This document shows, piece by piece, positions 7,415-52,320 of a stretch of DNA of 64,000 bases; position 1 is the first letter of the stretch, and every line of letters begins with the position of its first letter. The position numbers were made by a program, and so were the translations under genes. Below the pieces are notes generated by a model. That model had not been told where the DNA came from. It saw nothing but the letters and a program-made list of their open reading frames with translations, and ran no database searches. The DNA comes from Cymbomonas tetramitiformis (lineage: Eukaryota; Chlorophyta; Pyramimonadophyceae; Pyramimonadales; Pyramimonadaceae): positions 1-64,000 of the forward strand of contig LGRX02027133.1 in NCBI GenBank assembly GCA_001247695.2, given 5' to 3'.

Positions 7415-7450
7415 AACGCGGTTAATAGTATACAAATATGGCACAGCAAC

Positions 7451-7463
7451 CTGGATTGGTTGG
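7451..7463 (+). repeat. Target-site duplication, left copy
   Basis: CTGGATTGGTTGG is repeated exactly at 18499-18511. It lies inside codons 5-9 of the small viral gene whose ATG is at 7438-7440. Confidence 0.88.
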
Positions 7464-7864
7464 CCACTTTTCGATGAACCGTCCAGGCGTGCCACCCCGC
7501 CCGGAGCGGGCCGCGGGGCAGAAAAACGGTTGTTAGAAAATTAGTTCCAGTGATTCTTTGTGGGATATTTTTCAAATATCTTGCGACAGCTACGACCAGC
7601 GACACACATGAAGAGGAAGGGAAGGCAGGTGCGCGAAAGGTACGGGCCCACGCTGTCGAATTTCCGCCGGCAAGGGGCACTTTTCCTGCAGTGCAGAAGC
7701 GAAAGCACCCCGAAATTCACTCGAAAACTCACATAAACAGAAAAAACAGAGCTGGAATTCACTTTTTTTGCGCACCCAGAAAAAAACGAAAAGTTCGGGA
7801 ATTATTTCCAGACGAAATACGTGAAAATAAGGAGACCCGGAAGAAGCTAGAGCGGTCACGGAAG

Positions 7865-9818
7865 ATGCAGAACGTCCAGCACAACAGGCAGCAGCGTGGG
7901 ATGGCACCACCAGGCGCGGAAGGGGGGAGTCGAGAGACGGAGGACAGGAGGGTCATGCTCGAAATTCACAAAGAGTTTATGGCAATGAAACCAGCCACGT
8001 TGACGTCATTCACCGACGGGGCGAAGCTAACGTTGCCAATGAGCGAAGAGTTTGACGAGCAGCGTAATCTAACTGTGAAGCTTGAACAGGCACGGGACCC
8101 GACGAACACCAAGTCCAAGTAAGGCCCTCGAGAACTTTTATTCCGAAGAATTGAAGGACGTGCGGCTGTCGTACACCAAGTGGGCGAAGGGGTACCCACT
8201 GGAAACGCCGCATGGGACACTGGACGAGGCGGGCCACATTCGTTACAGCCTCCTTAAAAACTGCACCACGATAGACGGCAAGAACCTCGACGAGAATGGA
8301 TTTTTGGTTAACGACTTCCACATTACGGTTGGGCCTATGCGGGTGCCACCCCAGCAAGCGGTCGAGTTTCTGGGTCACATGGAGGCAGTCCTTCGAGGCC
8401 TTCATCGAGAGCACCAAGACAGACACATGATCTCCAGACAGTCGCCTCCGAGGCCGCGCTTTCATCAAGGGAGGGTGGCGGCGCTCGACATAAAGTTCAC
8501 CAAAACTGAGTACGCCACCACGGTTCTAGCGACCACCCTCCCTCTCCTCCCGGTGAACTGCTACCCGATAGGGGGAGACCTCTTCACGCAGGATGAACCA
8601 GTTTTTCCGCGGGTACGCATCTATGACGTCGCGACGAGAGGTGGGTCGGAGAGTAGAATGCTTCACGTATTGAGTGACGAACTGAAAGGTAAAAGCATCA
8701 CCGACCTGGAAGAGAGCCTGCTTGAGGTGGAGGGTCTGGAATCGGCTCAAAAAGGACACCGGCTTCAGCAGCGAGTAGCTTCCATCGCGGCAAACTGGCT
8801 GAAGTTGGTGGCCGTTTCCGAGGAGGCCGCACAGAAAATCGAGACCGGCACGGTACGTATACCTGGAATCAACGACTACGAGGTGCAACGGGTGGCCCTC
8901 ATCAAGGACGTCGACAAACTGGCGGAGACCGAAGTGGTGGTGGTGGACACGGGCTCAGTCATCGACCCCGAGTTCGACACAGAGGCGTTGGTAAGAGCGG
9001 TGGACGACGTGTTCGAGACTGCGTTGGGTGAAAACGAGCATCTACTACCTCACCTAGCAGTGCCATCATACCCGGCTACGGACAAGAAGGACGTGGCCTC
9101 TTTTGCGCGACTTCGGCAGCTGTACAAAGGAAGGCTCTTTTATTTCATCGCCAGTGAGGAAGCCTATAGGTGGCTGACATCGCAGGAGGGGTCACAAGCG
9201 AAAGTTACCGTTGACCATAAAGGTATGTATTTCTACTTGAGGCCATCCGACTACTCGCGCAACGGCAAGCGTGGACGTGGGCGTCAGCAGCGACCTGTGG
9301 GCATCACGCGTGACGACACGGTAGTACAAGCACTCGAAGCAAAACTGGGCACCTTCGCCGAGGCAGTCAAGGCGGCGACCGCCAGCCGTGGAGGTGAACT
9401 TGGGGGCGACACCGAGAGCGCCATACAGGATCTTGGGCGTCAAGTCAACGTCCTCAGCGACAAGGTTGAAAAGGGCTTCGCGGACACGGTCGACAACGTG
9501 AAGAAGGTGAACGCGTCAGTCGACAACGTGGACAAAGGGGTCACCAAGATCATCGACCTCACTGGCAACGTGCTCAAACGACAAGACGCACATCTTGAGC
9601 TGGCGGAGAATCAGAACAAGGTGGCCACGGCTATGCTTCAGAACTTGATCAAGCTCAACAAGAGCGCGGGAACTCCGACCCCGATCCCGCCATCCACTGG
9701 CACTGGAAGGCGTAAGAGGGGTGCGACGGGAACTCCTGCATCTGACACGGGCGCTGACACGGACACCGATATGGACACGGTGAGCAGCCAAATCGAGAAC
9801 CTCAAAAGACTTAGAAAG
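7865..9818 (+). CDS. ORF1-like protein, one frameshift, possible donor site at end
   Basis: An in-frame ATG is at 7865 (MQNVQHNRQQ). Upstream in the same open frame is a basic cluster, PRKKRKV near 7780, resembling a nuclear localisation signal. That frame stops at 8122, and the coding signal continues in another frame from about 8120 (KALENFYSEELKD), so a frameshift or small intron is needed. The following ~560 residues are well mixed and soluble in character. They end in a long amphipathic coiled-coil region (about 9440-9690) and a Thr/Asp-rich tail. A perfect-looking splice donor, AAAG|GTGAGT, sits at 9818/9819. Beyond it the frame stays open but turns into repeat-derived, low-complexity sequence. 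I recognise no family. By position it would be the nucleic-acid-binding or structural ORF1 protein. Confidence 0.5.
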
Positions 9819-10759
9819 GTGAGTAAAACAAAGCACCCCACTCAAAAAATCAACTGTCTGAAAGAGGGGGAACCAACGGGAGAAAAACGGGCGCTGAGTA
9901 GCGGGGTTGAGGTGGAATACATCAGGAAAGCGAGACAAAGAAGGCAGGAAGGGGCGAAAAGAAGTGAAAACAGATCAGAGGCTAAGCAACTGAAGAAAAG
10001 AGAGTGCTGGAAGCAGCACGAGAAGGGGAGAGCGGAGAATCAGCACGAGCCCTCTCCATCATCCTTGCGAGTATTTTCCAGCAGTACGGCGATCGACTGG
10101 AACCATATGTCTGAAAGTAGTGTGAAAAATGGTCAGTACGGGGCTCATCCTAAACGGGTGGAAGTATGTACACAACAGAGCAATCTAAAAATATGTATTA
10201 TGTGCATCACCCGTAACTGCCTGATATTTTGTGAAGGGAAAGAAAATCATAAGGTGAAAAGGGTGAGCATCCTGACACATCCTGTATGCACAAGTAGGGG
10301 GGAGAAGGGGAACATCCCAAGGGCACCAACACACGTTGGCATGGTCCACACACAGCCACAAGGGTGTGCCACTTGCTATATGAAAATATACAGCATACCC
10401 ACCCCAAACATCAATCTCAGCACCAACTGGAAACATCCTGACTGGATAACATACTCCATACACATAGGCCAACAGGAAAATAGAGGTCAAAATGATACCC
10501 AGTGTAAAAGAAATAAGAAACTCAGTATGTATAAAACTATACCAGCCCCTGAGATAGTAGCTCAACTAGTTGAGTATTTGACAGAGGTGTATGAAGCTTG
10601 TTCACAACAGGCTCAGTGGCGAGATAACACACAAGCAAGCAGTGAACAACAAAAGGCAAGTAGGTGCAAATATTTCCAGAGGGCTGATAAGTACACAGAG
10701 GCTTGTCACACACACATAAATTGGCAACACATGGTTCACAGGGACTACAGCAATAAAAC
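9819..10759 (+). other. Purine-rich open sequence after a splice donor
   Basis: The frame of ORF1 stays open here, but codon content changes to Lys/Arg/Gln/Asn-rich with no domain. With the GTGAGT at 9819 it reads better as intron or spacer. The plus strand is strongly poor in T and C, which by itself suppresses stop codons. Confidence 0.4.
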
Positions 10760-12620
10760 AAACTGCTCGGCTGCACACGAGAAAATAAGAAGAAACCCTA
10801 ACTCAAAGGGGACATACCTACAGAAAAAGGGGGGAATATGGGCACATGACGGCAAAACTGGACTAAATTTTTTTGCACAATGCCTACAAATGGTGAAACG
10901 AGAAGGTGAGGTGGAAATGAGCATGAACGGACGACATTGGGCATTTAGCGAATTGCTCCAGGAGCTCTACGTTAAAATAAGAACTTTTGCAAAAACAACC
11001 AAAATGGACAGATATTTTGAGGGGACACTCAAAGGATGTATACAAACAAGTATTGACGAAAACAGAGCTCAGAAATGCAGTAAGGAGGCTATGAGAGGGT
11101 TTCAGTTGTACGTAACGCGTAACAAGGGGGGCAATACGGAAGGAGAAACACATAAGCAAAGGAGGTGCACAGATAATAATGGCCATGGAAATGACATGCA
11201 AGGCACACTAAAGAATAGGGAGCCGATTGAAGCAAACTGCACCGCAATATACGAAAATAAGAGAGGAAACCCTAACCCGGAGGGGACATACCTACAGGAA
11301 AAGGGGGGAAAAGGGGCACATGGCGGCAAAATTGGGCTAAAATATTTTGCACAGTGCCTACAAATGATGAAACGAGGAGGCGAGATGAAAACACGCATGA
11401 ACGAACGACATTGGGCATTTAGCGAATTGCTCCAGGAGCTCTACGTTAAAATACGAACTTTTGTAAAAGTGACCCAAATGGACAGATATTTTAATGGGAC
11501 ACCTAAAGGAAGTGCACAAACAAGTATTGAGGAAAACGGAGCTCAGAAATGCAGTAAGGAGGCTATGAGAGGGCTGCAGTCGTACGTAACGCGTAACACA
11601 GGGGGCAATAAGGAAGGAGGAACATGTGAACAAAGGGGGCGCACAGAGAATAATGGACATGAAAATGACCCACAAGGTACACAGAAGAATGAGGAGTCGA
11701 TTGGAATGACTTACACGGCAATATACGGGAGAATGAGAGGAAACCCTAACCCGGAGGGGATATACCTACAGGAAAAGGGAGGAACAGGGGCACATGACGG
11801 CAAAATTGGACAGAAATATTTTACACAATACCTACAAATGGTGAAACAAAGAGGTGGGATAAAAATAAGCGTGAACGGACGACAATGGGCATTTAGCGAA
11901 TTGCTCCAGAAGCTCTACGTTAAAAAACGAACTTTCGCAAAAACGACCCAAATGGACAAATATTTTGAAGGGACATACACTTAAAAGGCATGCACAACTA
12001 AATATTGAGGAAAACGGAGCCCAAAACTGCAGTAAGGTGGGAGTGAGGAGGCTGAAAGCGTATGTAACGCGTAACGAGGAAAACGATACGGAACGAGAAA
12101 CACAAAAACAAATGAGGTGTATGGGGAATAATTACCACTATAACAACTCACGAGACACACTGAAAAGTGAGAAGCCGATTAAAACAAGCTGCGAGGCTAT
12201 ATGCGAGAAAACGAGAAGAAACCCTAACCCTGAGAAGGTGTACCTACAGGATGAAAGGGGAATGGAAGCACATAAAGGCAAAACCGGACAATTTTTTTTG
12301 CACAATACTTGCAAATAGCGAGATGCAGAAGGGGCATGAAAATGAGTGCGGACGGACGACATTGGACATTAAGCGAATTGTGCTGGATGCAATTCGAAAG
12401 AAAACAAAGTTTTTCAAAAATGGACCTCGGAGCGAAACATTCGCAGGGGGGACCCAAGGGGGGTACACAGAAATATAGGGAAAGGGGCGAGGCTAGAAAA
12501 TGCAGTAAGGAGAGCAAAGGAGGGCCACACACAAGTGTAACGCGTAACAAGGAAAATGACACGAAGGGCAGAGCGCGTGAAAAGTGGCGTAACGAGCGAA
12601 ATGCAAACAATTCACGGGGG
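10760..12620 (+). repeat. Four diverged tandem copies of a ~475-bp unit
   Basis: Landmark words recur with a period of about 475 bp. GTAACGCGTAACA-like words occur at about 11109, 11583, 12063 and 12539. TTAGCGAATTGCTCCAG-like words occur at about 10947, 11420, 11892 and, degenerate, 12369. AAACCCTAACCCGGAGGGG-like words occur near 10795, 11270, 11742 and 12220. The third and fourth copies carry stops in the shared frame. These could be 5' or internal regulatory repeats or intron filler of the element rather than protein. Confidence 0.8.
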
Positions 12621-12662
12621 GAAAGTTGGCAAAAGACGGACCGTACCCACGATAAAGTTGCG

Positions 12663-14567
12663 ATGAATAAAGTAATACTCGTAATTTGCGTTATGACCAC
12701 GGTCCTGACAAGAGGTAACATGAGAGGACGAAAAAGACTGGGCCAAAAGCCAATACAAAATACACAGACAACGGATTGCAAGGAGGCTGGCAAGAGGACG
12801 GAGGCAGCAGGGCGAAATGAGGCACCGGCAAGGAAACGTGCTGAGCGTGATACACAGACGAAGAGCATGGCGACAGCAGAGACAACCCTACAGAGAGCTG
12901 AAATAAGTGAGGGTGGGGAAGGGTTGCCAAGAAGGAAGGATAATAGAAACCATGAAACAATACCGCAAAGACCCACAAGGGGCCCCAGGTGGCTCGTCAC
13001 AGAGGAAGAGGGGGAACAAAGAGAGAGCTTCAGAAGGAGCTTCACATATTACCTGAGAGCGAACCGAAGGGAGCATGCATATGCATACAAACGAGGAAGG
13101 AGATACTGGAGGGAACACGAGATGGGGAAAACATGCAGGTGGGTACAACGCACCAAATATGACAGGCCACAACTGGTGAGAAGCAGGCAGGCGGTGAGGC
13201 AGGAGACAGAGGAAAAAAACCAAGATACGTGGATGCGAAGACACGGAGAGGTGCGCCGCATGACAGGCGAGATGCGCCGCATAGCAAAGATGGAAGGGGC
13301 CCAACTGATGGCTATGCACGTGACACTAGATGCGCTAAGCATGCTGGTTGAACAAACGCAGAAGGCACAACAAGTAATAAAAACCCCACAACAAAAAGCT
13401 ACACAACGGCACCCTAATGAATTGGTACATACCATTGGAGAGGGCACGGCAGTAACACACGAGGAAACCCTTGGCACGAGACTCAGCCAGCAGGAGGCCC
13501 TGAAAGAAAAGGATAAGGGGAAGGACGCCACAGCGCCACAACAGCCCTCCCATATTGGGGGAGGGACACGCCCGGCCAAGGGAATGGAAGGGCAGTACCC
13601 TAGAAACTCTGTCACGCAGGGGATATTTGCAGAGGATGGAAAGCTGAATATGTACCAAGTGGACCTCGCACTTGAGAAACTGGAGGAAAACCCCCCGGGG
13701 TCAACAACTATACAGGAGATACTAAGACTACTGAGGGGAAACGACGGAAGATTCCTAGAAATGATAAAAGGAAAAGTCACAAACAGGGGCGGCACACAAA
13801 TACCCGTAATAGGCAACGGACACTGGTTGCTACTAATGATAGGAGTCTGCGGCACGGGGAATAACCGCACGCTGCAGGCCTATGTATACGACTCTATGGG
13901 CGTAGAAAAGCACACGCGAAAGAAAACCGCCTCGAGGCAAATGGGGATGACGGAGGAACTACAAACAACAATAAACGGATGGGCAAAAGATAACAAGGAA
14001 GCGATGGGATGCCAAGAAGCCAGGGCCACGCTAATGTACGACAAGCACCAATATGACGCATACAACTGCGGTGTCTGGGTAATATACATTGCGGAATTGT
14101 GGCAAGCGCCAGGGGACCACTGGGGCCATGAGCGGAACAGAAAGCTGAAACCTGAGTATGTGCAACCAAGGAAAACAGGAGAGCTGGAGAAATACACCAG
14201 AAGCACAAAGGCAATGTCGGAAATAAGAAACTGGCCAACGCAGATAAAGGCGCTACACGAGGCAGGGAACAGCCTGAGGGACATAATGCAACTGATGTCC
14301 ATGTACCCGCTGGCCAACCAAAAGAAACACTTCGAGGAGGCAGGGGTGGAATGGACGGAACAGGAGAAGGAAGCCCTGGGTATAGGAGGAGTGGACCATG
14401 AGTGGGAAGAAGATGACATGATGGGGGAATGGACCCCACAAGCAAGTGCCGGAGAAGGGCTGATACAGCTGGACGAACGCAAATGGGCAAAACAGGAGGA
14501 CCCGATGGAGGCGCCTGACCGGGAAGGAACCCACGCACCTACCAGGATACTGGCCAGTAGACAGTAA
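12663..14567 (+). CDS. Ulp1/C48-like cysteine protease of the element
   Basis: The frame is open from the repeats. The first reasonable ATG is at 12663 (MNKVILVICVMTT), giving a hydrophobic N-terminus followed by a long basic region. The C-terminal third has the catalytic pattern of C48 (Ulp1/SENP-type) peptidases: His in GNGHWLLLMIG (codon 13821), Asp in YVYDSMG (codon 13890) and Cys in YNCGVWV (codon 14067), in the right order and spacing. Such proteases process SUMO-like conjugates in cells and occur in many transposons and large DNA viruses, where they may cut the polyprotein. The frame ends at a single TAA (14565-14567) and stays open in the same phase downstream, so this may be the N-terminal part of one polyprotein. 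Confidence 0.75.
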   Translation: MNKVILVICVMTTVLTRGNMRGRKRLGQKPIQNTQTTDCKEAGKRTEAAGRNEAPARKRAERDTQTKSMATAETTLQRAEISEGGEGLPRRKDNRNHETIPQRPTRGPRWLVTEEEGEQRESFRRSFTYYLRANRREHAYAYKRGRRYWREHEMGKTCRWVQRTKYDRPQLVRSRQAVRQETEEKNQDTWMRRHGEVRRMTGEMRRIAKMEGAQLMAMHVTLDALSMLVEQTQKAQQVIKTPQQKATQRHPNELVHTIGEGTAVTHEETLGTRLSQQEALKEKDKGKDATAPQQPSHIGGGTRPAKGMEGQYPRNSVTQGIFAEDGKLNMYQVDLALEKLEENPPGSTTIQEILRLLRGNDGRFLEMIKGKVTNRGGTQIPVIGNGHWLLLMIGVCGTGNNRTLQAYVYDSMGVEKHTRKKTASRQMGMTEELQTTINGWAKDNKEAMGCQEARATLMYDKHQYDAYNCGVWVIYIAELWQAPGDHWGHERNRKLKPEYVQPRKTGELEKYTRSTKAMSEIRNWPTQIKALHEAGNSLRDIMQLMSMYPLANQKKHFEEAGVEWTEQEKEALGIGGVDHEWEEDDMMGEWTPQASAGEGLIQLDERKWAKQEDPMEAPDREGTHAPTRILASRQ

Positions 14568-17500
14568 CTGGACAACCCTGCAGACCCAGACTCGAAAGTA
14601 ATACAATACGAAACTCAGTGGACGGACAGTGAAGGGAACGTGCTGAGCACGTGGAGCACTGAAGAGACAATTAGAAAACACATACCGGAACACAACCCCA
14701 CAGGGAACCGAAGATGGGAAGAACTGGTGGAGGAATGGGAAGGGACCAAACAGGATGAAAGGACCAAAAGCGGGCCCGTGAGTGAAATACTAGCAGGCAA
14801 GCCGAGAAGCGAGCAAAGGTACTGGAAGGAGGTCACCCACTTGACGATAACCACGGGGGAAACAAACCCAGACCAAGACATTAAACAAACACCGAACACA
14901 AAAAACAGGCAGCTGCGTACTGAAGGCGACACTACCTACTGTTATGAACCCAACGGAGGTCTGATAGGCACCCTCAGCACGGTAAAAGTCAGGGAACTAT
15001 ATAACAGATATACCAGAGAGGTGGGAGATGGAGCGGTGCAATGCCCGACAGGGAAACAGCTGGCCAAAAGGCTGAAATTGAAACTGGAGCATAAAATACA
15101 TGTTGACACGTTTGAGGAGGAAATTGCGCAGCTACTCATAAGATACTCCAGCAAGGCAGAAATGAAGCACAGAAAACGAAACCTGCAGAACCACTGGACC
15201 CTTCCCCCAGAAATGATGGAGGCGGTCCAAGCAGCTACGGGGGCCAGGACAGAAGTATTTGCCTCTCCACTCAACGTACATAAAAACACTAAGACATATT
15301 ACTCGCAATACCCGAGAGACTCGGTCTTCGGGGCTGCTGGTTCAGCCTGGGAGGCGCAATGGGGGCAACTGGGGGCATACCAATTCAACCCGGAATACAC
15401 GGCCGAAGACCTCCACAGGGCACTAAAGATGGCGATAAACGCTACAAAAACAGCCAAACCCGTCCTAGGGGTGGGAATATACCCTACGTATGCAAAGAGT
15501 CCGTACAGAAAACTACTAAACAAGCACATGGGATACAGGGTACACGAGTTACTCGAAGTGAAGGAGGGGCAGTTTACCTTCCTACCACCGGACCATTGGA
15601 TGCAAGACAACCTACAAAAGCCCAAGCAGTGTAACTGGAACATGAGGATATTGGTAGTTGCAAATGCGGCGGGATGGAGGAAATTCTGCCCAAATGCGGT
15701 GAGAACACACGACATATTCAAGGCCCTTCTCAGATGCCCACAAAGCAAGGTCAGGACGGTAGGGAGGGCATGTTACATACACAGGCCTCTCACACTCAGG
15801 GACACGGGCAGACAGCCCAGGTCGATTACGGAATGGGAGAAAGACTGCGTCATAGACCCGTCCCCATGGACGAGTCATGAACTGCCCGTACTGCGCGCAT
15901 TACCAGGAGAACAAGTGGAGAACCATGTAGAAGAGATTATTGACCGCTGGATGGAAGACAGGGGGAGGGAAGGTGAACCCAGGGGAGGGGACAGGGGACC
16001 CAGACCCTCAACGATGGATGTCTTGGGGGCCAACACCACGTGGAGTAGGGAAGAAATAAGTAGAGATGCACTTAGAAGGTGGGCGCTGCAATTCGCGAAC
16101 CCAAAAGCGGAAGAAGGGGACATGGAAGGGGACCAGTGGTCACAGCGGGAACGGGGTGAAACTGAGGAAGTAGAACCACAGCCTGAGAGTCAGTGGGACA
16201 ACAACGGAAAAGGATACCCAGAACCTGACAGAAGATTCAACAGGAATGAAATGGTCTACACAGACGGAAGCCAGAGAAAAGTCAAAAGAGAAAATGGGGA
16301 ACAGGAGGAGGTAACCGCTGCGGGAGTATGGGACCCAAGAGGGGGGCAGAATGCGGAATACATGCAAAGATGGCAGGGCCACTGCCAAACGGTCAACAGG
16401 GCGGAGCTGACAGCCATATATATGGCACTAATGCTGGAGGCCAATACCGGCAACACAGAGGTAAACATATGCACAGACAGCTTGACCTCGCTTTACCAAA
16501 TACAAAACATGAAAAGAAGGCCCCATGTGTTGGAGAAGCATGTGCACAGGGATATACTCTGGAAAATAATGAAACAAATACAAACGCTCAACGGGGAAGG
16601 GACCAAGGTGGCACTATATAAAGTCAAAGCACATGTGGGGATACACGGAAATGAAAAGGCTGATGAGGTGGCAAGAAAGGCCTGTGTTGAGGGAGAGTAT
16701 GGCTTCAACCACGACAACACTGACACGGTGAAATTACTTGCCGTATGCGAGGCCACAGGAAGGCAATTGGAAGGTCACCAGGCAGTACTTAACCACGTAA
16801 CAAAACGAGTACGGGAGGCAAAAATGACGGGGAAAACGAACATAATACAAAGACTGAAAAGGAAGCTAGAGACTGGACCAGAGGAATGGGAAACCAAAAG
16901 ACAACGCATTGAAAGAATGGAAGCTGAGCGAGCAAGAAGAAACGGAGAGCTGGAGGAACCAGGGGCTGAAGAGGGAACTGGGGAAGACACATGGCCGGAA
17001 GAACTAGACATGCAGACACAGGAAGAAGAAATAGAGATTCTGCGAATGGAACAGGAAGAGGAAGCACTGATTGAGGCACAGGGAGTATGGGCAACACCAC
17101 AGGAGGGTGACGGAAACATGCCCCTGTCGACGGGGAAGGAAGCAGGGATGCACGAGCAGGAAGAAGACAGGGGGATAGAGGAGGAAGAAACAAGGTTGAA
17201 CCAAGAGGAGGGAGTGACACTTGTGCGGGGGCCTCCACAGGGAGTTGATGAGCCACTGGATGCCCAACAGCATGCCGAGCTGCGGGAAACGCGGGGGACA
17301 GGGCCACCAGAAACCCGGGACATAAACATGGAGACACAACAGGAGGAAGAAGAAGAGCTGGCTGCAATGGCCCAACAACAAGAGGAGGCACAGGAGGAAC
17401 TGGTGACAATGCACGAAATGGCACAGCAGCAGGCGGTAGCACAAAGGGAAGCACGACTCGCAGGGGAATGGAGGAGGGCCTCGATGGGAAAGATAAGGGT

Positions 17501-18413
17501 AGCAGTACAGGAGACGCCGGAGAAATACATGCAACACCTGAAAGGGGACACAGCCATGCATAAACTCTCCAACGAGTACTGGGAAAAGGGGAACGAATAC
17601 CTGAATGAACATGATGTGACAGTCCTATTAAGATGTAGAGCGAACAAATTGCCGGCGGGCCCCTATAAAAAGTGGAGAAGAGGGATGCGGACACAAAAGT
17701 GTAAATGTTGCGGGATGCCTGGGCAGGTGAATGCAGGGGGTTTCATACGCACGGCCCATGTACTAGGGGGATGTACGGAAAGGGAAATAAGGAACATGGT
17801 AATAAGCAGGTCGGACGAGACCACCAAAATGATAGCAATGGGTATGAATAAAGGCAGAAAAGGGGGATGCATAATAAGGACCCATGCGGGGAGGAAAGGG
17901 TCAGGGATGAATGCAGGCAGACCAATAGAAGACTTCCTACTCACAAGAGGGCAATGCAGAATGGATGGGAGGAACCACCCGGCACCGGAACATAGAAAGG
18001 ACACCATACCGCACTTTGTGGACATAGTAATGCTAGAAGGAACCGAGAAAGGGAATAAGCAGCCGGGGTACACACACCAACAAGCAATGGCGGATGCCGG
18101 GCATATACACCTAATTGAGGTAACCTATACGGATGAAATGAGCTGGGAAGAGGCACTAAAAACGAAGTATACGAAGTATGCACCATTGGTAAAGCTACTA
18201 GAATTGTACGGGTACAAGGTGACGCTACATGTGATGGTATTCGGGAACACGGGTACGATATATGAACACACGGAGAAGATTCTGACCAAACACCTAGGAT
18301 TCGACAAACAGGAAGCACTACACCTGCTCAGAAAGATACATGACCTTGCTACGGGATATGCAGTTAGCCTTAACAGACTATATAGGAAAAAGGTGGACAC
18401 CGAACCGGATTAA
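14568..18413 (+). CDS. PCIF1-like MTase / RNase H / restriction-like endonuclease
   Basis: This 1,281-codon frame is in phase with the protease frame, across one TAA. Domain 1 (about 15180-15800) resembles the PCIF1 family: EVFASPLN, then FGAAGS, then a motif-IV position reading NPEY at codon 15387, where the family has NPPF. Domain 2 (about 16250-16690) is RNase HI, with YTDGS, NRAELTAIYMA, ICTDSL and VKAHVGIHGNEKADEVARKA giving the acidic set and the His. A Glu/Gln-rich coiled-coil linker follows (about 16900-17480). Domain 3 (17698-18400) has a Cys/His knuckle (KCKCCG then TAHVLGGC) and an R2-type PD-(D/E)xK endonuclease pattern: HFVDIVML, HLIEVTYTDE and KTKYTKYAPLVKLL. PCIF1 proteins methylate cap-adjacent adenosine. 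Here the altered motif makes activity uncertain. No reverse transcriptase is visible. Confidence 0.75.
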   Translation: MDNPADPDSKVIQYETQWTDSEGNVLSTWSTEETIRKHIPEHNPTGNRRWEELVEEWEGTKQDERTKSGPVSEILAGKPRSEQRYWKEVTHLTITTGETNPDQDIKQTPNTKNRQLRTEGDTTYCYEPNGGLIGTLSTVKVRELYNRYTREVGDGAVQCPTGKQLAKRLKLKLEHKIHVDTFEEEIAQLLIRYSSKAEMKHRKRNLQNHWTLPPEMMEAVQAATGARTEVFASPLNVHKNTKTYYSQYPRDSVFGAAGSAWEAQWGQLGAYQFNPEYTAEDLHRALKMAINATKTAKPVLGVGIYPTYAKSPYRKLLNKHMGYRVHELLEVKEGQFTFLPPDHWMQDNLQKPKQCNWNMRILVVANAAGWRKFCPNAVRTHDIFKALLRCPQSKVRTVGRACYIHRPLTLRDTGRQPRSITEWEKDCVIDPSPWTSHELPVLRALPGEQVENHVEEIIDRWMEDRGREGEPRGGDRGPRPSTMDVLGANTTWSREEISRDALRRWALQFANPKAEEGDMEGDQWSQRERGETEEVEPQPESQWDNNGKGYPEPDRRFNRNEMVYTDGSQRKVKRENGEQEEVTAAGVWDPRGGQNAEYMQRWQGHCQTVNRAELTAIYMALMLEANTGNTEVNICTDSLTSLYQIQNMKRRPHVLEKHVHRDILWKIMKQIQTLNGEGTKVALYKVKAHVGIHGNEKADEVARKACVEGEYGFNHDNTDTVKLLAVCEATGRQLEGHQAVLNHVTKRVREAKMTGKTNIIQRLKRKLETGPEEWETKRQRIERMEAERARRNGELEEPGAEEGTGEDTWPEELDMQTQEEEIEILRMEQEEEALIEAQGVWATPQEGDGNMPLSTGKEAGMHEQEEDRGIEEEETRLNQEEGVTLVRGPPQGVDEPLDAQQHAELRETRGTGPPETRDINMETQQEEEEELAAMAQQQEEAQEELVTMHEMAQQQAVAQREARLAGEWRRASMGKIRVAVQETPEKYMQHLKGDTAMHKLSNEYWEKGNEYLNEHDVTVLLRCRANKLPAGPYKKWRRGMRTQKCKCCGMPGQVNAGGFIRTAHVLGGCTEREIRNMVISRSDETTKMIAMGMNKGRKGGCIIRTHAGRKGSGMNAGRPIEDFLLTRGQCRMDGRNHPAPEHRKDTIPHFVDIVMLEGTEKGNKQPGYTHQQAMADAGHIHLIEVTYTDEMSWEEALKTKYTKYAPLVKLLELYGYKVTLHVMVFGNTGTIYEHTEKILTKHLGFDKQEALHLLRKIHDLATGYAVSLNRLYRKKVDTEPD

Positions 18414-18455
18414 GAGAAAGGATGGGAGAAGAGTCATGGGGACTCACAAAGCCCC

Positions 18456-18498
18456 ACACCCCGAAAAAGGGTGTCTCTTTTTCTTTTTCTTTTTCTTT
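18456..18498 (+). other. 3'-terminal hairpin and (CTTTTT)n tail
   Basis: ACACCC (18456-18461) and GGGTGT (18469-18474) can pair around the loop CGAAAAA. They are followed by repeats of CTTTTT up to the target-site duplication. A 3' stem-loop plus microsatellite tail is what many non-LTR retrotransposons use for template recognition. Confidence 0.7.
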
Positions 18499-18511
18499 CT
18501 GGATTGGTTGG
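18499..18511 (+). repeat. Target-site duplication, right copy
   Basis: An exact copy of the 13 bases at 7451-7463. Removing the element and one copy rejoins the viral frame without a phase change. Confidence 0.88.
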
Positions 18512-19163
18512 TTACAATATGATGAAAGACGTAGGTCCCAATGTGGACAGACAAATTCACACTGCGACGATGTTTCAAATGTCAGGTTTTAGACCGGTTA
18601 TGATGCAACAGCTACCATGTAAAACAATCAATGACATCACATATCCACCATTTAGGATAAGCAACGTTCATCCTCTGGCTGGATACAAATCTTATACTTT
18701 AGGACATGGTGAAAAGCTTTCTCAAAAGATGGAAATGTTCCATTTCCCGATGAATTTCGGAAATGAATTGAATGCCAAAACATTAACATACACGAACACC
18801 ACATTCCGAACAGTAATCAGAGATGGAACACTGATACAATTAACAAAGGATGACGCACAAAATCAGATTATCTTAGGTGCTGGTAACACAATTGTTCGGT
18901 TGCCGGAATGTGTACCTGCTATCAAGGGTAAAATGTTTACAATTTATAACGGGACGGCTGCTTCCGGTCAAGGGGTTATTGTTCAGAAGTTTGCGGGTGA
19001 CAGAATACATGGATATTCAGACACAACTAACGGCGATATCCTTTTAGAAAATGGTACACCAAACGGTAATACTATAACAAGCGTTACGCTGATTGCATCA
19101 GGCGAAAGGACGTATCAACCAGGTTCAACTACCATTGTTGACATTCCAGGAATTTCAAATTGA
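18512..19163 (+). pseudogene. PLV fibre-like gene, 5' end split off by the 11-kb element
   Basis: The ATG and first codons are at 7438-7463, right after the capsid gene. The remaining ~217 codons are here, in phase across the target-site duplication. The rest of the frame is free of stops up to 19163. The C-terminal part (from about codon 125) reads like tail-fibre or penton-associated proteins: repeating beta-strand units with NTIVRLPECVPAIKGKMF and IVQKFAGDRIHGY-type segments. I cannot name a family. Its position directly downstream of the capsid gene fits a viral structural operon. It is a pseudogene only because of the insertion. Confidence 0.65.
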
Positions 19164-30626: not shown

Positions 30627-33600
30627 CTAATCTTCGTCATCAGAACTACTATCGCCGATGTCGCCGACAAAATCGACGTGGCGGTCAAGCACGACGGCAA
30701 GCACGTCTGTCCGATGTCGAATATTTAATGGAACCTTGTTACCGGTATACCGCGCAAGCCGCAAAGGCTTCCATGGGATGGGCGCCACGACCACTTGATT
30801 GTTGATGTCCTTCGCTTCGATGAATGCATCTTTGGTTTCCCATGGCATATCGGTGCGCAGGTAGATGTTTTGCGTGACCGCATCGGAAAGAGCAGCTTCG
30901 AGGGGAAACCATCTACACTTCACAAGAATATATGTGTCAGTGTGCACGACAAGCTTGACGACCTTCAGAATTTCGCCATACCTGCCATCAGAAGTGAAAG
31001 AATCATGAACACCTGCAAATCGAGATCTACAAGGACGCTTTGGTCCGGGCGTCCGGAACCGTGTGGCAGCATGGTTCCGGACGCCCGGAACGTCTCGAAC
31101 TTTTGAATATTTAAACAGATTTAATGAAACGTAGCTTGACCATGGTCCAAACGGCCGGAACCTACACTCCACTCTTATACAGACGTCTGGAACATGTATA
31201 GTTGGCATGTCTCACCTGTCCTGGTCGTCTTCTTGCTGCTTCTGTACATTCCAGACTTTAAAGACAGACTTGAAATATCGATGACAAGTAGCCTTGTTCA
31301 TGTCCCTTTCCAGCGATCTGTAATTAAAATTGCGAACTTTGACGTAAGCATACTCTGTCCACATTCTCGGTGGTGCCAAGGCGTAACTCATTTCCATCTC
31401 CGTAAACGGAATGACTTCCCCTGTGACGGGGCTCTTGCGCCAGGTTTCAGGTTGATGAAGTATCGGCCTCGTCAAGTTTTGACCTGGGCCACTGCCCCTG
31501 CCGCGACGAGCCGCCAAGCGACGTCGGTTTTGTCTAATGTTCCTGCATGGTCCAAATGCCCGGAGGCCACGTTCCGGGCGCTTGGACGTTAGTTCCGGGC
31601 GAGGGGAACACCAATAAACTGCGTACGTGAATGATTAGTCAAAAAAAGCTTCGGTCAAGCAAACATGCATACCTCGTGTAATGGTCTTCAGCACGATTAA
31701 ATTCTCTGACAATGTTCCCGTACCACTCCACGTTTGTAGCCAGCCAAGCTTGTATCTCCTTCTTATCATCTACGCACCGCAAAACGGAAATTTGTTAAAC
31801 AATGCGTGCTTTTGACGATCTAATTCCAAACGCCCGGAACCAAACCGGAACCTGGGTCCCGGGCGCCCGGAAGGGTGTGGATGGAACGAGCCCTATTGGC
31901 TTGGGCTTTGTCTAATGAAAGGTCCAAGCATATTCCAACCGGTTGGACCCTGCTCAATGATACGTTTCCAAACCCCTGGACCGAAATTGGACGATATGCA
32001 CTTAAGTCTGGACAGTACCTGGTGTCGAGTAGACAAGTTTGCCCTTCCTCTCGTTGCCGGTCGCCAACATCAGGGACACGGTGTTCTCGCTACGTGGTTG
32101 GCTAATGGTTGGTGGCGAACCATTCGCCTGTAGCAACTGGTATAAGCCGCGTACCAGACTTACCATGCGTTTCAACTCCACCCCTTTCATCATGCTGGCG
32201 ACAGGGTGCGAGCGAGTCCTGATGATCCGTCTCAGCTCGCCGAAGAAGCTCTCTGGAGCGAACATCCAAAGATCGGGAACTGGTCCTTCGTCACGCATCT
32301 GATCCGGAATATGAACGAGCTGGTGCGTTGCAATGACGAAAAGCTCAGGCGAGAGCTCAGCTTCCATGATGTCACGGACTTCCAATACCCTTGTCTTCAA
32401 GGCGTCCATGCCAGTTTTATGATGCTGAACCGCACGCCCAAAACGGAATAAATCAGTATAGCCTGAATGAATAGGTTCCGTGCTACCGGAACATTGATCC
32501 AATGTTGGTCCGGCCGCCCGGAATTGTGGTTCCAATCCGAAGCATATGAACATGAGCAACAACCATGAAGCAGGTCCGAACGTCCGGACTATGGCCTCCA
32601 AACGGTTCCAAGCGCCCGGAACATGGGGTAAGCAGTGTTTATACTCACATCGATATCAATGGTTCTGCTCACAATCTCGCGGACCACCGTCGTATATTTC
32701 CCAACGTAGGAAGCGAATTCCGGTTGTAGCACATGGCCATCACTGTTCATCCACGCGCTGACAATCGACATGAGTCCACTTGTGATAGCAACTACGCCAT
32801 GATGTGCTTTCAACTTGCGTGGCGTAGTTTGCGTTCCCGCCTTGATTTGCAGAAACTTCCTCCCAATCGGCCCCGAATCTCGGGTAAACTTGAGCCCTCT
32901 TACCCATGGGATAATCTCCTTCAAGGCCTCCTTAGAAGGGGACCACGGAGAGGGTTTCACTACAAGAGATCGATCCCACACACACGCACACAACCTATCC
33001 TGGTTCAATACGAAACCTATACAATCTTAATTCATTCATGAAGAAACGTTCCGGGCGTTCGGAACCCACCCTCCAACGTGTGACAGGGGTGTGGATTATC
33101 TACATTCGTTCAGAAAATAGCATTCCGGGCGTTTGGAACCCGTTATCCAACGTGTGACAGGGGTGTGGACCATCTACATTCATTCAGGAAATAGCATTCC
33201 GGGCGTTTGGAACCCTTACACCACCGTCTATCAGGGGTTTGGACCATCATAATATTGGACAGGTGGTGTACTCACATCTCAGCCGTTCTGCTGGGCTCCG
33301 GTTGTCATTTTCATTCCTCCTTGGTATAGGAATAAGCCACGGCCTGTGCATCTGATAGGCCCTCGCAAAGTTTCGGCACTTTAAATTCCAGTCATCACCG
33401 AGAATCGCTGACATAATCCGGCAGGAGTTGTTGGACAAGATGTGCATGACGTCGAAAAGCAAGTCGCGTGGCAAATTAAACTTCACAATCTTGGTAAAAG
33501 CACTCGATCCTTTGATCCCACTCCGTGCCATTTTGTCCTTAATGACTTCCGGATGCATACCCGCTTCGATCATCCCGTCGTGCAGGTGCTGCAACTCCCT

Positions 33601-36060
33601 CACTTCTTTGTCCGTTCTCATCGCTGGCTCTTCACCTGCAAACATCATAAAAAACACGATACAGTTGAAAGAATATTGTGTAAAACCACGAGTACACAGG
33701 TCCGGCCGTGGGGTGCATGGGTTCCGGGCGTGTGGAATTACTAGCTTTGATCTCTCCATATTTTCCCTATAATGGTCCAACCGGCCGGAACCGGGGCTCC
33801 CGACGCCTGGAAGTACAGTCAGAAATATTTTGAAATCTGTCCAACCGTCCGAATACATACTAGGAAGAATGCAGCAGGGATCAGACTTACTTGGATTTTG
33901 TTGTAGCATCTGCGCGTAAATCGTCTTCTGCATGCAAGACTCTGCCTTTGTTGTCCCGACAATCCAACATTTGGAACATCCCATCCTCGCGTTTGTTCCA
34001 TACACGTTCCCCGCTTCGGTCAATCCGACATAATCCTCGAGCACCTTGTACAACTTGACTCGAACGGTGAAAGGCTTGTTTTCGATAACGTCCCACACCC
34101 GGCAACCGTTCTTTTCGATGTCAATAATCTTGTCCACGAACTTGTGGTAGAAGAGTTGGGCATCTTTGGGTTTGCCATCAATAATGCCCCAAAGCACAAT
34201 GAACTCGCTTTTGCCTCGAAGATGTGCAGGGTAATTCACCACTTGGCAGGTTATAGGTGTCACAGATCCCAGTTTATCTTTGAATTTCTCGATGCCGTCC
34301 GCGCATAACACCACAGAGAGGTTGCGCTTGTCCTTGAAGAACTCCGGGTCCTCGAGCATGGTCCTCTGCCAGCTTCGTGAATCTACACCCGCACTAACAT
34401 GTCTTAGTCCAACCGGTCGGATTAGGTATTCCACACGCTCGGACTATGCTAAGACAACAAAACAGGTTGTTGTAACATATCCATTACGACCAGACACGTA
34501 TTCCACACGGATGGAACGCCATTCCGGGCGCCCGGAACGTGCCATCCATGCAGATTTACTCGCAATTATCTTTGTTAATCTACATCCGCAAAATTCCAAA
34601 CGGCCGGAACGTTTGGTCCACACGTTTGGACTATACCAAGACAACCAAAATGGGTGTAGTGACATATCCAAACGGCCGGACGCATGTTCCATCCGGGTGG
34701 AGGCATGGATCCGGGCGCCCGGAATAGGCAATCCATGCAGTCTAATTGACAGTGTTTACTCACCTAATATTCCAGTGCTTCTGACGATCGGCTCATCCAA
34801 GTCAACTTTCTCCCATGAACGTGCCATCTGTGCCTGCACCGGATCCATGAAAAGGGCCTCCAGTATCCTTGTCCACGGCCACCAGCGGAAAACGCACTTG
34901 GCCCTTCCGGGTTCCCACTTGCCATCGACCATTGATGGCTCCTTGAACCGGCCGTGGTTGCATTTCGGACACGTCGGTGCCTCTTCGGGAAGCAGATCTT
35001 TGAAAAGAAAATTGCACTTCTGGCACACATCCATCTCGTTGTACTTCATGAGGAAATCCTTGAAAAACCGCACGCACGCTTGGTAGGTATGAGGTAGTGC
35101 TACCTCGTCATCGGTCGAGATTGATTCATCGTCGACCTCCAAGCCGCATACTCGACGTCGCAGAATTTCCAGGATTGTGTCAAAGTACGCCTGGGTCGAG
35201 TTATGGTTGGAGTGGGCCTCAAGTAGATCCAGTATGAAGCGGTTTGCAAGGGTAGTCGATTTGTCATGCACATTTTCTCCCTCCTGCAATTTAGTCACAC
35301 AGCATCTGATTGATTTTGGTCCAGAGGGGTTCCACACGTAAGGACGCACCGTTCCAATGACTTGGAATAGTGATATAGTGCAGTTTTCGGAAGGCATTCA
35401 ATCTGTGCGTATTGAACTTACCATGATGAATTCCGGGTCCCTTGTTCGGTCGTTTTCACGTTGCTCGCGCGCATCACTTTCCTCCTCCTAGAATACGGCG
35501 GGCATCCACTCCCATCAACCCAGCAATCCTGAACTAATAAGATGCGATGTAAGAATCTGGCTTACAGTGATGGCTCTAAAGGTGTTCCAAAGGCTTGGAC
35601 GATGCTTGGACTCTTCTTCGTGGGGGAATCCAAGGTTGTTCCAAAGGCTTGGACGGGGCTTGGATATTGTTAAACAATGGTTCCAACGGCTTGGACGGGA
35701 TTTAGAACTCACCGAGTCGGACGATGCATACTCAATCGGGCTGAAGAAGTTTTCACGGATCTTTCGGAGCATCCGTTCGGCATGGTCATGAAGATATGTG
35801 TCATCCTCGTGTTCTTCCTCTTCGTCCGTCTCTGATGGTGGATCCGTCTCACCGTCATCATTCACACTTTCGGCACCGTCAAGAGAGTCGTTTTCTTCAT
35901 GATCTCGGTCATTGGAGAGGCGTGCGACGGGCGGATGTAGGACCAAATGCCGCTTAATCTGTCTTTTGGAGTAGCAAAATCGGAGTCTGCATTGATCGCA
36001 TGGGCATGGAGTGCCTTCCGCGTTCTCGTTTCGAGCTAGTCCACGCCTTTGCCTAGCCAT
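30627..36060 (-). CDS. CACTA transposase (Transposase_21/TNP2-like), 10 exons, intact
   Basis: The ATG is at 36060-36058. Exons with GT-AG borders are 36060-35713, 35487-35422, 35283-34764, 34382-33891, 33635-33276, 32959-32649, 32424-32019, 31769-31673, 31542-31216 and 30981-30627. They sum to 3,282 nt and stay in phase throughout, giving about 1,093 residues. The N-terminus has a C2H2-like finger (CDQC then HLVLH) and an acidic region. Exon 3 has paired Cys motifs (CQKC, CPKC) and the Transposase_21 start. Exons 4-5 carry the likely acidic catalytic positions (LCADGIEKF, KVLEDYVG, LLFDVMH). Exon 7 matches the DUF4218 signature (ATHQLVHIPDQMRDEG, then WMFAPESFFGELRR). Exon 10 matches DUF4216 (YGEILKVVKLVVHTD). 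The protein would cut and paste the element. No stop or frameshift is visible, so it could be active. Confidence 0.88.
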
Positions 36061-43543: not shown

Positions 43544-43953
43544 TGTTGAAATCTGCAGTGTCTGCTGATCAGTTTGATGTAAAGCATGACTGTCTAGGCC
43601 TTGCACAGCAGTCAGGATGCTCAAACCCTGAAGGAACCCTGAAGAAACCCTATGAAACCCTTAGATCTAGATCTAGATCTGCTGAACTAATCGTGGCCGT
43701 TGGATCATATGATGACCATCGGCAAGACACAGTGTGTAATAGTTCATCGGCCCATCGCAGACGTGTCACTGCAGTCGTTATGAACTCGACAGTGGCACGT
43801 CAGACTCTATTTAGTGAACTTTCACTTAGACTGCCCAATCAGTAATGATTGGGTGCTAAAGTTCGTGGCGTTTCAAGCTGCGAACTGCTATATCTTTTGA
43901 GAATGAAAGTTTTCGCTCGCTTTTTGCAAATAACCCTGTACTGAATTCCAAAA
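43544..43953 (+). repeat. Left LTR, 410 bp
   Basis: It starts TGTTGAAATCTGCAGTG and ends GAATTCCAAAA. It contains AGATCTAGATCTAGATCT, which differs in copy number from the right LTR. The outer end is TG but the inner end is AA rather than CA. Confidence 0.9.
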
Positions 43954-44036: not shown

Positions 44037-46241
44037 ATGGTCAAAGGGAGTAAGAGCTATAGCCAAGCTGCGACACCGCCACCTCCTGGTGGCGCGCCAG
44101 AATGTGAAGTGTCATATTCTGGCGAGTCGTCTTCGCGAGATGTTGCGCTGAGTAGTCAGCAGGAGCAAATCTCGGCGCTTACGGAAATGGTGAAAGGTTT
44201 GAGTGCTTAGCTCTACGATATGCGCAGCCTTAATCACCCAGGTCTCAGCGCCACTCCTGTCCCTGAGGACAAACATCTCACTTCGTCGCCCGCTGGTGGG
44301 CGACGTCCTTTACCAGGTCTTTCTCATATGACCAAGGGGCTTTCCGCGGACTCGTACTTTTCTGGCAAGGAAACTGACCAGGAAGGAATTTGGGACGAGT
44401 TTTGTGCGAGAATTAAGCCTTCTTTGCGCCACCCTTCTCTTGCGCTACTGCTTTTGGAATCTACTCCGCTCCATATGGTGAGGGGGGATGAACTCTATCT
44501 TGAGGAAGCAAATCAACTGTTTTATGACTTCATCTGCCGTGTTACCACTGGCACTGCGAACGCTGTCGTTCGCAGCTACGAACAACATTCTGACGGTCAC
44601 GGAGCTTGGCTTGAGCTATCCAAATTGCGACGCAACACCAGCGTCGTCTACTTCATCACCCAAGTGAATAAGCTGCTGTCGCTACCGAAACAACTCTCGA
44701 GACTTGCCCCTCCTCTCCCAACGTTTTTGGAGTCGAAGGAGACTCTTCGGCGTATACGCGAGTACTCCGCGAACGCGCGCGTTACTCCTTCTGGCAAGCC
44801 TCTGTGTATGGAGACGGTTGAGACCATATTTTCTGCCATGGCTATTGTGCGACTGCACCCCGAGTATATGCTCCTCAAGGCCAAATTCATGTCTGAGACC
44901 CTGCCGACCGCGAGTGTGCTGTCGGACCAAGTCACATCTCACTACGACACCATACTCGCCCCGCGTGCTGCCGTGACGCGCGCTGCCCTCGCAGTGAACC
45001 ACACCGGCGACAATTCTGAATCTGAGGCTGCTGGCAAGGTCCCTTGCTCTATCTGTCACAGACGTGGCCACCCTTCTACAGATTGCTTCATCAAGAACGT
45101 CGAGAAGCGGGAGGCGTTCTTCGAGAAGGCTTCCCCCTCTACCAAGGCGGCAATTCTTAAGAAGGTTGCGCACTACGAGAGGCATGGTAAATTACCGAAG
45201 CCTGGTGAGCACCTTGGTGCTGCAGCTAGGCAATCTGAACTTCATCCTGGACTGGAAGAGGCTGGTGAGGTCCTTTTAGCCATTCGGGAGGCTGGTCCAT
45301 CTGACTTACACCCTGGTCTGAGCGAGACCGGTGAAGATATATATGCCAGTTATTTCGGCTCTGGGCTATTGGAATCTGGTAATTCTAGCATCTCTGGCTC
45401 GCTGACCCTTTGCCCGGCCTCGGGCCAGCTATCGACGTATCAGGACTCCGAACTGGTGGAGTCATCATTAATGGACGGTGCACAATCTGCCCTGAGCTCA
45501 GGGTCAGCTGGGGCTGGTAATCTCAACATCTCTGGGTCGCTGCCTTCCAGTTCGACCCCGTGCGAGCCCTGGATATCTGGTCGGGGCTCTGTACCTGTGG
45601 AGTCCCAGTCCTCTGTGTTCCCGGTACTCAATTACTACTCTGTCCTGACGGAGGTGGGCGAGCCTGAGGTTGTTATATCCCACACTGCTGGCGAGGAGGA
45701 GAAGCACTCTGATACTGGTGAGACTTTATTTGCTCTCCGTGAGAGTGGGCAATCTGACTTATACCCTGGCCTGGAGGACACCGGTAAGGCTTTATTTGCT
45801 CTCGGTGAGGGAGGGCAATCTGGTAAATCTGCCTTTGTGGACCCTCCATCCTCTAGACTCGCCCTCTCCGACAATTATTCAGTGCTGGACAGAGTGTTGG
45901 CGGTGCCTACTGATGCTACTGCTCGCTGTGCTAAGGTGGCCGGGGGGGTGGTGGATCCTGACCTGCAAGTTGCGCCCCGCTCCACTATGGACAAGAGCGC
46001 TGTTCTGGATTGTGGCGCCACCAAGCACATCTTCGACTCTATGAAGGTGTTCACCGAGGATGATGATGGTGATCACTTTGGTGACAACTTTGATGACTCC
46101 ATCCCCGATCTGGACTCGGGCTCCGACTCGCATGAGGATGATGATCCCGAGGCTTGTCAGGTTGGACTATCTGGACATCCTGAGCTTTATCCTGGACTAC
46201 GAGTGGATATCTTGACAAGCTACCCCGTGATGATCAAATGA
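44037..46241 (+). pseudogene. Gag with CCHC knuckle and protease start; one in-frame TAG
   Basis: The ATG at 44037 opens a 735-codon frame with a single TAG at codon 58 (44208-44210). The capsid-like region (about 44350-45000) has copia gag character. The zinc knuckle CSICHRRGHPSTDC (near 45047) is a standard C-x2-C-x4-H-x4-C. The following ~300 codons contain repeated modules of the type LHPGLEEAGE (about 45240, 45308, 45761, 46188) and a doubled ISGSL segment. Near 46000 the sequence AVLDCGATKHIF matches the start of a copia aspartic protease, with Cys in place of Ser in the DSGAT motif. The protease then breaks off into an acidic tail. No integrase or reverse transcriptase is present. Confidence 0.8.
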
Positions 46242-46444: not shown

Positions 46445-46856
46445 TATTGGAATCTGCAGTGTCTGCTGATCAGTTTGATGTAAAGCATGACTGTCTAGGC
46501 CATGCACAGTAGTCAGGATGCTCAAACCCTGAAGGAACCCTGAAGAAACCCTATGAAACCCTTAGATCTAGATCTGTAGATCTGCTGAACTAATCGTGGC
46601 CGTTGGATCATATGATGACCATCGGCAAGACACAGTGTGTAATAGTTCATCGGCCCATCGCAGACGTGTCACTGCAGTCGTTACGAACTCGACAGTGGCA
46701 CGTCAGACTCTATTTAGTGAACTTTCACTTAGACTGCCCAATCAGTAATGATTGGGCGCTAAAGTTCGTGGCGTTTCAAGCTGCGAACTGCTATATCTTT
46801 TGAGAATGAAAGTTTACGCTCGCTTTTTGCAAATAACCCTGTACTGAATTCCAAAA
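46445..46856 (+). repeat. Right LTR, 412 bp
   Basis: It is almost identical to the left LTR. It starts TATTGG where the left copy has TGTTGA, so the outer dinucleotide is mutated, and it ends AATTCCAAAA before CCTAC. Confidence 0.9.
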
Positions 46857-51249: not shown

Positions 51250-52320
51250 ACCCAGGGTACTTCACTTATCCTGTCAATCGGTACAGGTATACAGATCGCC
51301 TCTGCACCGTCTCGATCATCAGTGAATCCCCGTCCCCTATAATAGCTTGGCGCAGCGCAAACTACTGCAAGCCATAGTTACGCATCACTTGTCCCCACCA
51401 AAATGCAGTGATCTTCTTGGTCACACAGACCTCTTCCATATAGGACAAGAAATCTGTGATTTTATCTTCCACACTCGTCTCACCCACGTTTTGGACTCGC
51501 TTGACATCATCTTCATGCCACTTTTGATGATGCTACCCCTAGGGTCCATGCAGGGACTGCCATCAGCCACAGCAGTAGCTCATGGACTGCCAGGAGGTTC
51601 CACCCATCGTAGTGAGGATGAGCAGGTTTCCAGGTGCGTCCATAAAGGTCGGTGTGACCACTGTCTCCTGACCTTTGTTCGGGACAACTTTGAGCTTTGC
51701 TTTCCAGATGCGCGACAACTCGCAGGTACTCATTTGTAAGGTCCTCACCATTCTCCTTGACGGTTCAAAACCATGGTTTGGTAAGTTTGGAAGCATGAAG
51801 GTAAGGTTTGATAATGGTGAGGACCTTGCAAACGAGCACCTGCGAGTTGTCGCGCATCTGGAAAGCAAAGCTCAAAGTTGTCCCGAACAAAGGTCAGGAG
51901 ACAGTGGTCACACCGACCTTTATGGACGCACCTGGAAACCTGCTCATCCTCACTACGATGGGTGGAACCTCCTGGCAGTGCATGAGCTACTGTTGTGGCT
52001 GATGGCAGTCCCTGCATGGACCCTAGGGGTAGCATCATCAAAAGTGGCATGAAGATGATGTCAAGCGAGTCCAAAACGTGGGTGAGACGAGTGTGGAAGA
52101 TAAAATCACAGATTTCTTGTCCTATATGGAAGAGGTCTGTGGGACCAAGAAGATCACTGCATTTTGGTGGGGACAAGTGATGCGTAACTATGGCTTGCAG
52201 TAATTTGCGCTTCCCTACGCCAAGCTATTATAGGGGACGGGGATTCACTGATGATCGAGACGGTGCAGAGGCGATCTGTATACCTGTGCCGATCCACAGG
52301 AAAAGTGAAGTACCCAGGGT
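51250..52320. mobile_element. Foldback element: ~505-bp inverted arms
   Basis: The arms at 51250-51753 and 51813-52320 are reverse complements with very few differences, around a ~59-bp centre. The outer ends read ACCC(A/T)GGGTACTTCACTT. The interior encodes no recognisable protein. It is a foldback or long-TIR non-autonomous element. No convincing target-site duplication was seen. Confidence 0.88.

Follow-up and report, generated by a model that had tools for sequence, protein, structure and literature searches.

A probable internally deleted member of an unusual LINE family with a PCIF1-like domain in Cymbomonas tetramitiformis

Introduction

How does an element with the termini of a non-LTR retrotransposon come to be without a reverse transcriptase (RT)? 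This question is raised by a locus in the window, as we call the whole 64-kb stretch of Cymbomonas tetramitiformis DNA that was analyzed. An earlier sequence-only reading had proposed that a PCIF1-like methyltransferase (MTase) domain, preceded by a Ulp1-type protease, occupies the place of the RT in an element with an R2-type endonuclease, and had considered either a non-autonomous element with a borrowed RT or a new class. It had suggested profile searches and an alignment of further copies, and had named RT-bearing sister copies as the finding that would speak against its proposal. The question of an RT-less class is answered here by direct comparison of copies: the locus very probably holds a copy from which an internal segment has been lost, and the LINE family to which it belongs is an unusual one, a giant non-LTR retrotransposon of Cymbomonas that is young and present in many copies.

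Results

Termini and insertion site

The element copy occupies positions 7464–18498 on the plus strand (11,035 bp), with ends that are common to full-length copies, and its sense strand is rich in A (0.344) and poor in T (0.152). It is abutted on both sides by a 13-bp target-site duplication, CTGGATTGGTTGG (7451–7463 and 18499–18511), a sequence that occurs exactly twice within the 64-kb window. At the 3' end, a plus-strand hairpin (ACACCC-loop-GGGTGT, 18456–18474), recognized by eye from the sequence and not by folding, is followed by a (CTTTTT)n microsatellite tail (18475–18498). Other copies, where our script located this part, end in the same hairpin and a CTTTTT-type tail of variable length. 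Duplication, hairpin and tail are all present where the sequence-only reading had placed the ends of the element. A search against Rfam returned two matches, both under the gathering score.

The insertion site is an open frame within a GC-poor stretch. When the flanks are joined without the element, a single uninterrupted plus-strand frame results, which starts with an ATG at 7438, is split after 7463 and resumes at 18512. The frame preceding the insertion looks to us like the terminal part of a capsid gene from a polinton-like virus, and Pfam found nothing above its cut-off in three right-flank frames; insertion into a polinton-like-virus gene is a lead. The Cymbomonas genome paper mentions a polinton-like virus whose 16-kb insert includes a retroelement (PMC10675990); 16 kb is also the size that we found for long copies of the element.

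Elsewhere in the window, direct repeats of ~410 bp that are 98% identical (43546–43953 and 46447–46856) flank an ORF of 673 aa (44220–46241) for which Pfam gave no match; perhaps this is an LTR-type element. The minus strand carries a copia-type RT fragment (58619–61082; RVT_2, E 2.1e-12), and an adjoining frame weakly matches Dam adenine methylase (2.3e-5, under the cut-off). A Transposase_21 (tnp2 family) frame also lies on the minus strand (33250–34434, E 1e-16). An inverted repeat with 411-nt arms, 97% complementary and 54 nt apart, spans 51345–52220.

Coding regions of the window copy

All features described in this section lie on the plus strand. The N-terminal, ORF1-like coding region (7865–9833) is matched by the Cymbomonas protein P0039 and is under purifying selection in sister copies. 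The match changes frame near 8110, and the window copy is therefore frame-broken at this point. The region is followed by 2.8 copies of a 474-bp (158-codon) tandem repeat (10781–12117) and by a C48/Ulp1-like cysteine-protease region (13800–14102), in which the motifs GHW, YDSM and HQYDAYNCG fall, by eye, at the catalytic places of what we assume to be the C48/Ulp1 spacing. The protease announced ahead of the PCIF1-like domain is thus represented by a C48-like region, with a Peptidase_C48 match that stays under the Pfam cut-off (E 0.0058), and a comparison of the region with the PDB by sequence gave no protease match. In P0045, a C48-like stretch (132–231) and an APE domain (492–595) follow each other within one protein.

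An in-frame stop at 14565–14567, where P0002 reads on, splits the downstream frame, which had been taken as continuous from 12663 to 18413. Beyond the stop lie the PCIF1-like (CAPAM-fold) region (14838–15800, bounds approximate; Pfam match 15099–15512), an RNase H domain (16245–16685; Pfam and profile match) and a restriction-like endonuclease (RLE) region with CCHC finger and PD..E residues (17481–18410; alignment and profile). In the suggested profile searches, PCIF1_WW (E 1.2e-14) and RNase_H (E 1.7e-17) exceeded the Pfam cut-offs in the window copy, RVT_3, an RNase H-like model, stayed under its cut-off (E 0.00076), as did Peptidase_C48, and RVT_1 was absent at E ≤ 10 within HMMER's filters. 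APE likewise gave no Pfam match in the window copy. The absence of an RT from this copy was therefore correctly noted, as far as Pfam finds such domains.

Numbered in the frame that begins at 14568, the CCHC residues of the RLE region are C1045, C1048, H1064 and C1069, and the PD..E residues are D1152 and E1184. Across an alignment of 15 sequences, the first two cysteines and the histidine are invariant, the last cysteine is nearly so, and the PD..E positions are present. The profile built from these sequences matches the R2 protein 9nl2 (E 5.3e-11), with its best stretch in the RLE region; the same profile also matches RNase H1 and PCIF1 (6irv, E 9.7e-9). Ends, duplications, RLE residues and R2 match all agree with the proposed non-LTR retrotransposon with an R2-type endonuclease. 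The CCHC finger and the PD-(D/E)-type endonuclease lie C-terminal to the RT, which is found upstream in sister copies.

Sister copies carry APE and RT

The contigs of the 851.7-Mb assembly (25,745 contigs) were searched with a query from the 3' end (18200–18498, 299 bp). This gave 1001 first-look candidates, the best 40 of which were scored and proved to be at least 98% identical. Sequences were fetched for 30 of the 39 scored matches besides the window, namely ten copies with ~20 kb each and the junction regions of 20 more. In six of the ten long-range copies, the match to the window reaches 14105, is followed by 4,969–4,979 extra bp and resumes at 14104, which places a deletion junction with a 2-bp overlap (AA) at 14104–14105 on the plus strand of the window. 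Among these six, C1709 matches the window only from 12440, and C19045 has a diverged 5' part, its 5' end not having been located. In tblastn searches, APE was found in six of the ten long-range copies and the whole RT query in seven of them (partial in one) and in 12 of the 20 further junction regions (partial in one); the remaining fetched regions gave shorter matches or none. In a 3,197-residue part of C24924, Pfam identified Exo_endo_phos (1.1e-7), RVT_1 (5.1e-30), PCIF1_WW (6.1e-14) and RNase_H (7e-17), in this order. The alignment of further copies thus yielded the RT-bearing version, and the MTase does not take the place of the RT, as relatives have an RT with the MTase downstream of it.

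Compared with C24924, the window copy lacks a segment of 4,974 bp including the AA overlap, in which sister copies have APE and RT. This corresponds to 1,658 codons and the fusion in the window copy therefore stays in frame. Splicing was ruled out as the origin of the deletion because the boundaries are not GT-AG. A 300-bp query spanning the junction gave 697 candidates, the best 40 of which were scored, a procedure in which a full-span match should outrank half matches. The window alone matched from end to end; each of the remaining 39 scored matches either ends at base 147 or begins at base 146.

A new RT-less class is ruled out by these results, sister copies with an RT being precisely what had been named as speaking against it; those found here have APE as well. 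It is also most improbable that the window copy belongs to an amplified non-autonomous family in which endonuclease, RNase H and MTase are kept and the RT is supplied in trans. One would expect such a family to show one internal structure at several insertions, and the junction was found in one of the 40 matches scored out of 697 candidates. The window copy does have intact termini, a duplication and an in-frame fusion, and internal deletions also occur in C3878, where a duplication was recognized by eye, and in C18746, but the breakpoints of these two differ from that in the window, copies with RT are common, and the window copy carries its own stop and frame change.

Among the scored matches, the nearest relatives of the window copy on the 3' side over ~600 bp are C19030 (99.5%) and C4119 (99.3%), both with RT, and the closest 5' match is C12251 (99%). 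Compared with four long copies in ten stretches, identity is 92.7–98.0% upstream of the junction and 97.0–98.7% downstream. As identity differs across the junction, the window copy may be a recombinant and not a simple deletion. A chimeric contig would show the same shift, and in a repeat-rich genome (68.3% interspersed repeats, PMC10675990) a 16-kb copy could have been collapsed at the AA microhomology during assembly. We consider such an error unlikely: the two target-site duplications match, so that both element ends belong to one insertion. The closest 5' and 3' matches lie in different copies, as they would also do for a real recombinant. An internally deleted copy is the reading that we prefer. 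Its deletion may have arisen by template jumping during insertion or later at the 2-bp microhomology; if it preceded insertion, the RT would have come from a sister copy.

A giant frame under purifying selection

Three long copies measure 16,015, 16,003 and 16,004 bp; C718, as bounded, comprises 15,529 bp, with about one 474-bp unit less and approximately the first 10 bp absent. A single frame runs across the element as bounded, including the 474-bp repeats, in C24924 (5,188 codons), C718 (5,145 codons) and C19045 (5,085 codons), and is interrupted in C22791, C19077 and C1709, i.e., in three of the six long copies. The frame that had been described for the window copy is therefore the 3' part of a larger one, which in some sister copies extends over the whole element. 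In C24924, this frame contains five stops in 5,338 codons as compared to 90–318 stops in the other five frames, and composition alone would lead one to expect ~246 stops in 5,188 codons. To our knowledge, a frame of ~5,100 codons is among the longest single reading frames of any LINE. When the RT was used as a query, 26 of 150 scored matches (the best 150 of 3041 first-look candidates) resided in frames of 5,000 codons or more, ten of them in the family of the window copy and 16 in a second family at 86% identity. Many of the 150 scored matches belong to the second family, a large number of them at the same score, and one of its frames has 8,508 codons (C17766); the family apparently reflects a recent burst of another giant LINE.

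Changes relative to the majority codon were counted in seven aligned sequences (six copies and the window). N/S per site is 0.10 for the PCIF1-like region (7 N, 19 S) and 0.99 for an acidic linker (29 N, 8 S), a difference with a Fisher p of 7.7e-5 that, like all selection p values here, is optimistic because the copies share ancestry. The ratios for RNase H (0.13), C48 (0.14), APE (0.14), RLE (0.18) and RT (0.22) are similarly low, as is that for the N-terminal core (0.13); the value for the repeats, 0.78, is not significant (six sequences for both the core and the repeats). A separate count with nine sequences from 14104 on again gave 7 N and 19 S for the PCIF1-like region.

First-look candidates numbered 1001 at the 3' end, 697 in the middle of the element and 44 in the N-terminal region, loose counts from three queries of differing length. 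A gradient of this kind is the pattern expected from target-primed reverse transcription with 5' truncation. Of the traits of RLE-type non-LTR retrotransposons, target-site duplications are thus directly visible, and 5' truncation appears solely as this loose gradient. Duplications of ~10–14 bp were seen by eye around C24924, C3878 and a nested copy, and of 8–11 bp at C718. The nested copy is a long one that sits, in C22791 and C19077, inside another copy of the family at the equivalent of window positions 17772–17785, with a 13-bp duplication; the two contigs perhaps represent one duplicated locus.

Protein relatives

With the 14568–18410 frame as query, 37 proteins were found. The nearest relatives with a species name are gene models of Cymbomonas tetramitiformis. 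Precomputed annotations list RVT_1 together with PCIF1_WW in five of them (P0007, P0027, P0028, P0031 and P0034), and domain scans place RVT_1 upstream of PCIF1_WW in all five. The RTs of P0007 and P0037 match R2 first and then L1 in the PDB. Two queries against viral contigs retrieved no relative. P0032, a metagenome protein from a contig of 38365 bp, combines PCIF1_WW, a C5 cytosine DNA methylase domain and RNase H.

The PCIF1-like domain

The structural match of the PCIF1-like region is to the PCIF1-type Rossmann MTase fold and covers residues 417–668 of human PCIF1. The motifs ASPLN and FGA are present, and NPEY (15387–15398) is found where PCIF1 has NPPF. None of the 35 relatives having that alignment column contains NPP[FYW], and N-P-x-Y is absent from 12 of the 35; in the most diverged rows, which residues fall at the motif depends on the alignment. 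Disruption of NPPF lowers the activity of PCIF1 (PMC6318281), and the cap is bound by a helical domain of PCIF1, as described in a review (PMC10544176). This helical domain lies outside the structural match, and Pfam did not detect a WW domain in the window copy. The idea of a cap-adenosine methylase that marks the element's own RNA retains the PCIF1 fold as its basis and is weakened by the lack of NPPF, which PCIF1 needs, from all 35 relatives.

More broadly, the domain could be an active adenine methylase whose substrate is the RNA of the element, modified at the cap or internally, or its cDNA. In view of the same motif losses and of the unmatched cap-binding domain, we regard this as a possibility somewhat short of even odds. 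Alternatively, the domain may have lost its methylation activity and act within the RT complex by binding RNA or as a structural component, which in our estimation has about an even chance: the motif drifts across relatives, and P0037 and P0038 from Haematococcus still match the family profile (E 1.2e-21 and 1e-14) with NVPA at the position of the motif, but the SAM-side motifs remain conserved among the Cymbomonas proteins, and the drift hinges on the alignment of the most diverged rows. A bolder proposal, which we consider rather unlikely, is that a captured and still enzymatic PCIF1-type domain methylates the element's own RNA or cDNA from within a ~5,100-residue polyprotein that is cut by its own Ulp1-type protease. 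If true, green-algal dual-endonuclease LINEs would have a polyprotein like that of a virus and an epitranscriptomic writer of their own.

Discussion

The long copies of the family, ~16 kb in size, would in some cases encode one polyprotein with the predicted order N-terminal domain, 158-residue repeats, C48-like protease, APE, RT, linker, PCIF1-like domain, RNase H and RLE. By analogy with known LINEs, APE and/or RLE would nick the target, the RT would copy the element RNA starting from the hairpin and (CTTTTT)n end, RNase H would remove the template and the second strand would be cut with a stagger of ~10–14 bp. More tentatively, the putative C48-like protease may cut the polyprotein, and the PCIF1-like domain may bind, and perhaps methylate, the element's own RNA or cDNA.

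A PCIF1-fold domain is a regular and selected part of a high-copy green-algal LINE family, with relatives elsewhere. With this family it can be tested whether retroelements carry domains that modify or read RNA, and whether LINE polyproteins are processed by a protease. Among the titles and abstract openings listed, mostly of non-subscription papers, none reports PCIF1 within a retrotransposon; the survey by Iyer, Zhang and Aravind (2016), which deals with adenine methylases of eukaryotes, could mention it.

Compared with PCIF1/CAPAM itself, the domain described here has NPEY for NPPF, gives no WW match and is without a matched cap-binding helical domain. Other retrotransposons also carry methylases, namely cytosine DNMTs in dinoflagellates and charophytes and Dam-like MTases in DIRS elements (PMC5890265); these belong to MTase families other than the PCIF1-like one.

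By domain content and mode, the Cymbomonas family appears to resemble the Dualen/RandI LINEs, with a C48-like region reminiscent of the NeSL protease. Dualen/RandI elements unite APE and RLE and possess RNase H (PMC4640811), a combination shared by the Cymbomonas family. RNase H and a C-terminal RLE are present in the window copy itself. An APE N-terminal to the RT is not found there, and is a feature of the family because sister copies have APE. In green algae, RandI families have non-A repeats at their ends, for example (ATT)n and (CTATTT)n, and the end of a SINE linked to RandI-2 is (CTTT)n (PMC3747384), similar to the (CTTTTT)n of the Cymbomonas family. Compared by description only, the Cymbomonas family differs from Dualen/RandI in its size of ~16 kb, a single frame near 5,100 codons, the C48-like protease, the 158-residue repeats and the PCIF1-like domain between RT and RNase H.

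We know of neither APE nor MTase in the NeSL and Utopia-1_TSP LINEs. These elements combine an RLE with a Ulp1-like cysteine protease (PMC4640811), and in this respect they resemble the Cymbomonas family with its RLE and putative C48-like protease; in the latter, however, the putative protease is positioned ahead of APE and RT within a far longer polyprotein.
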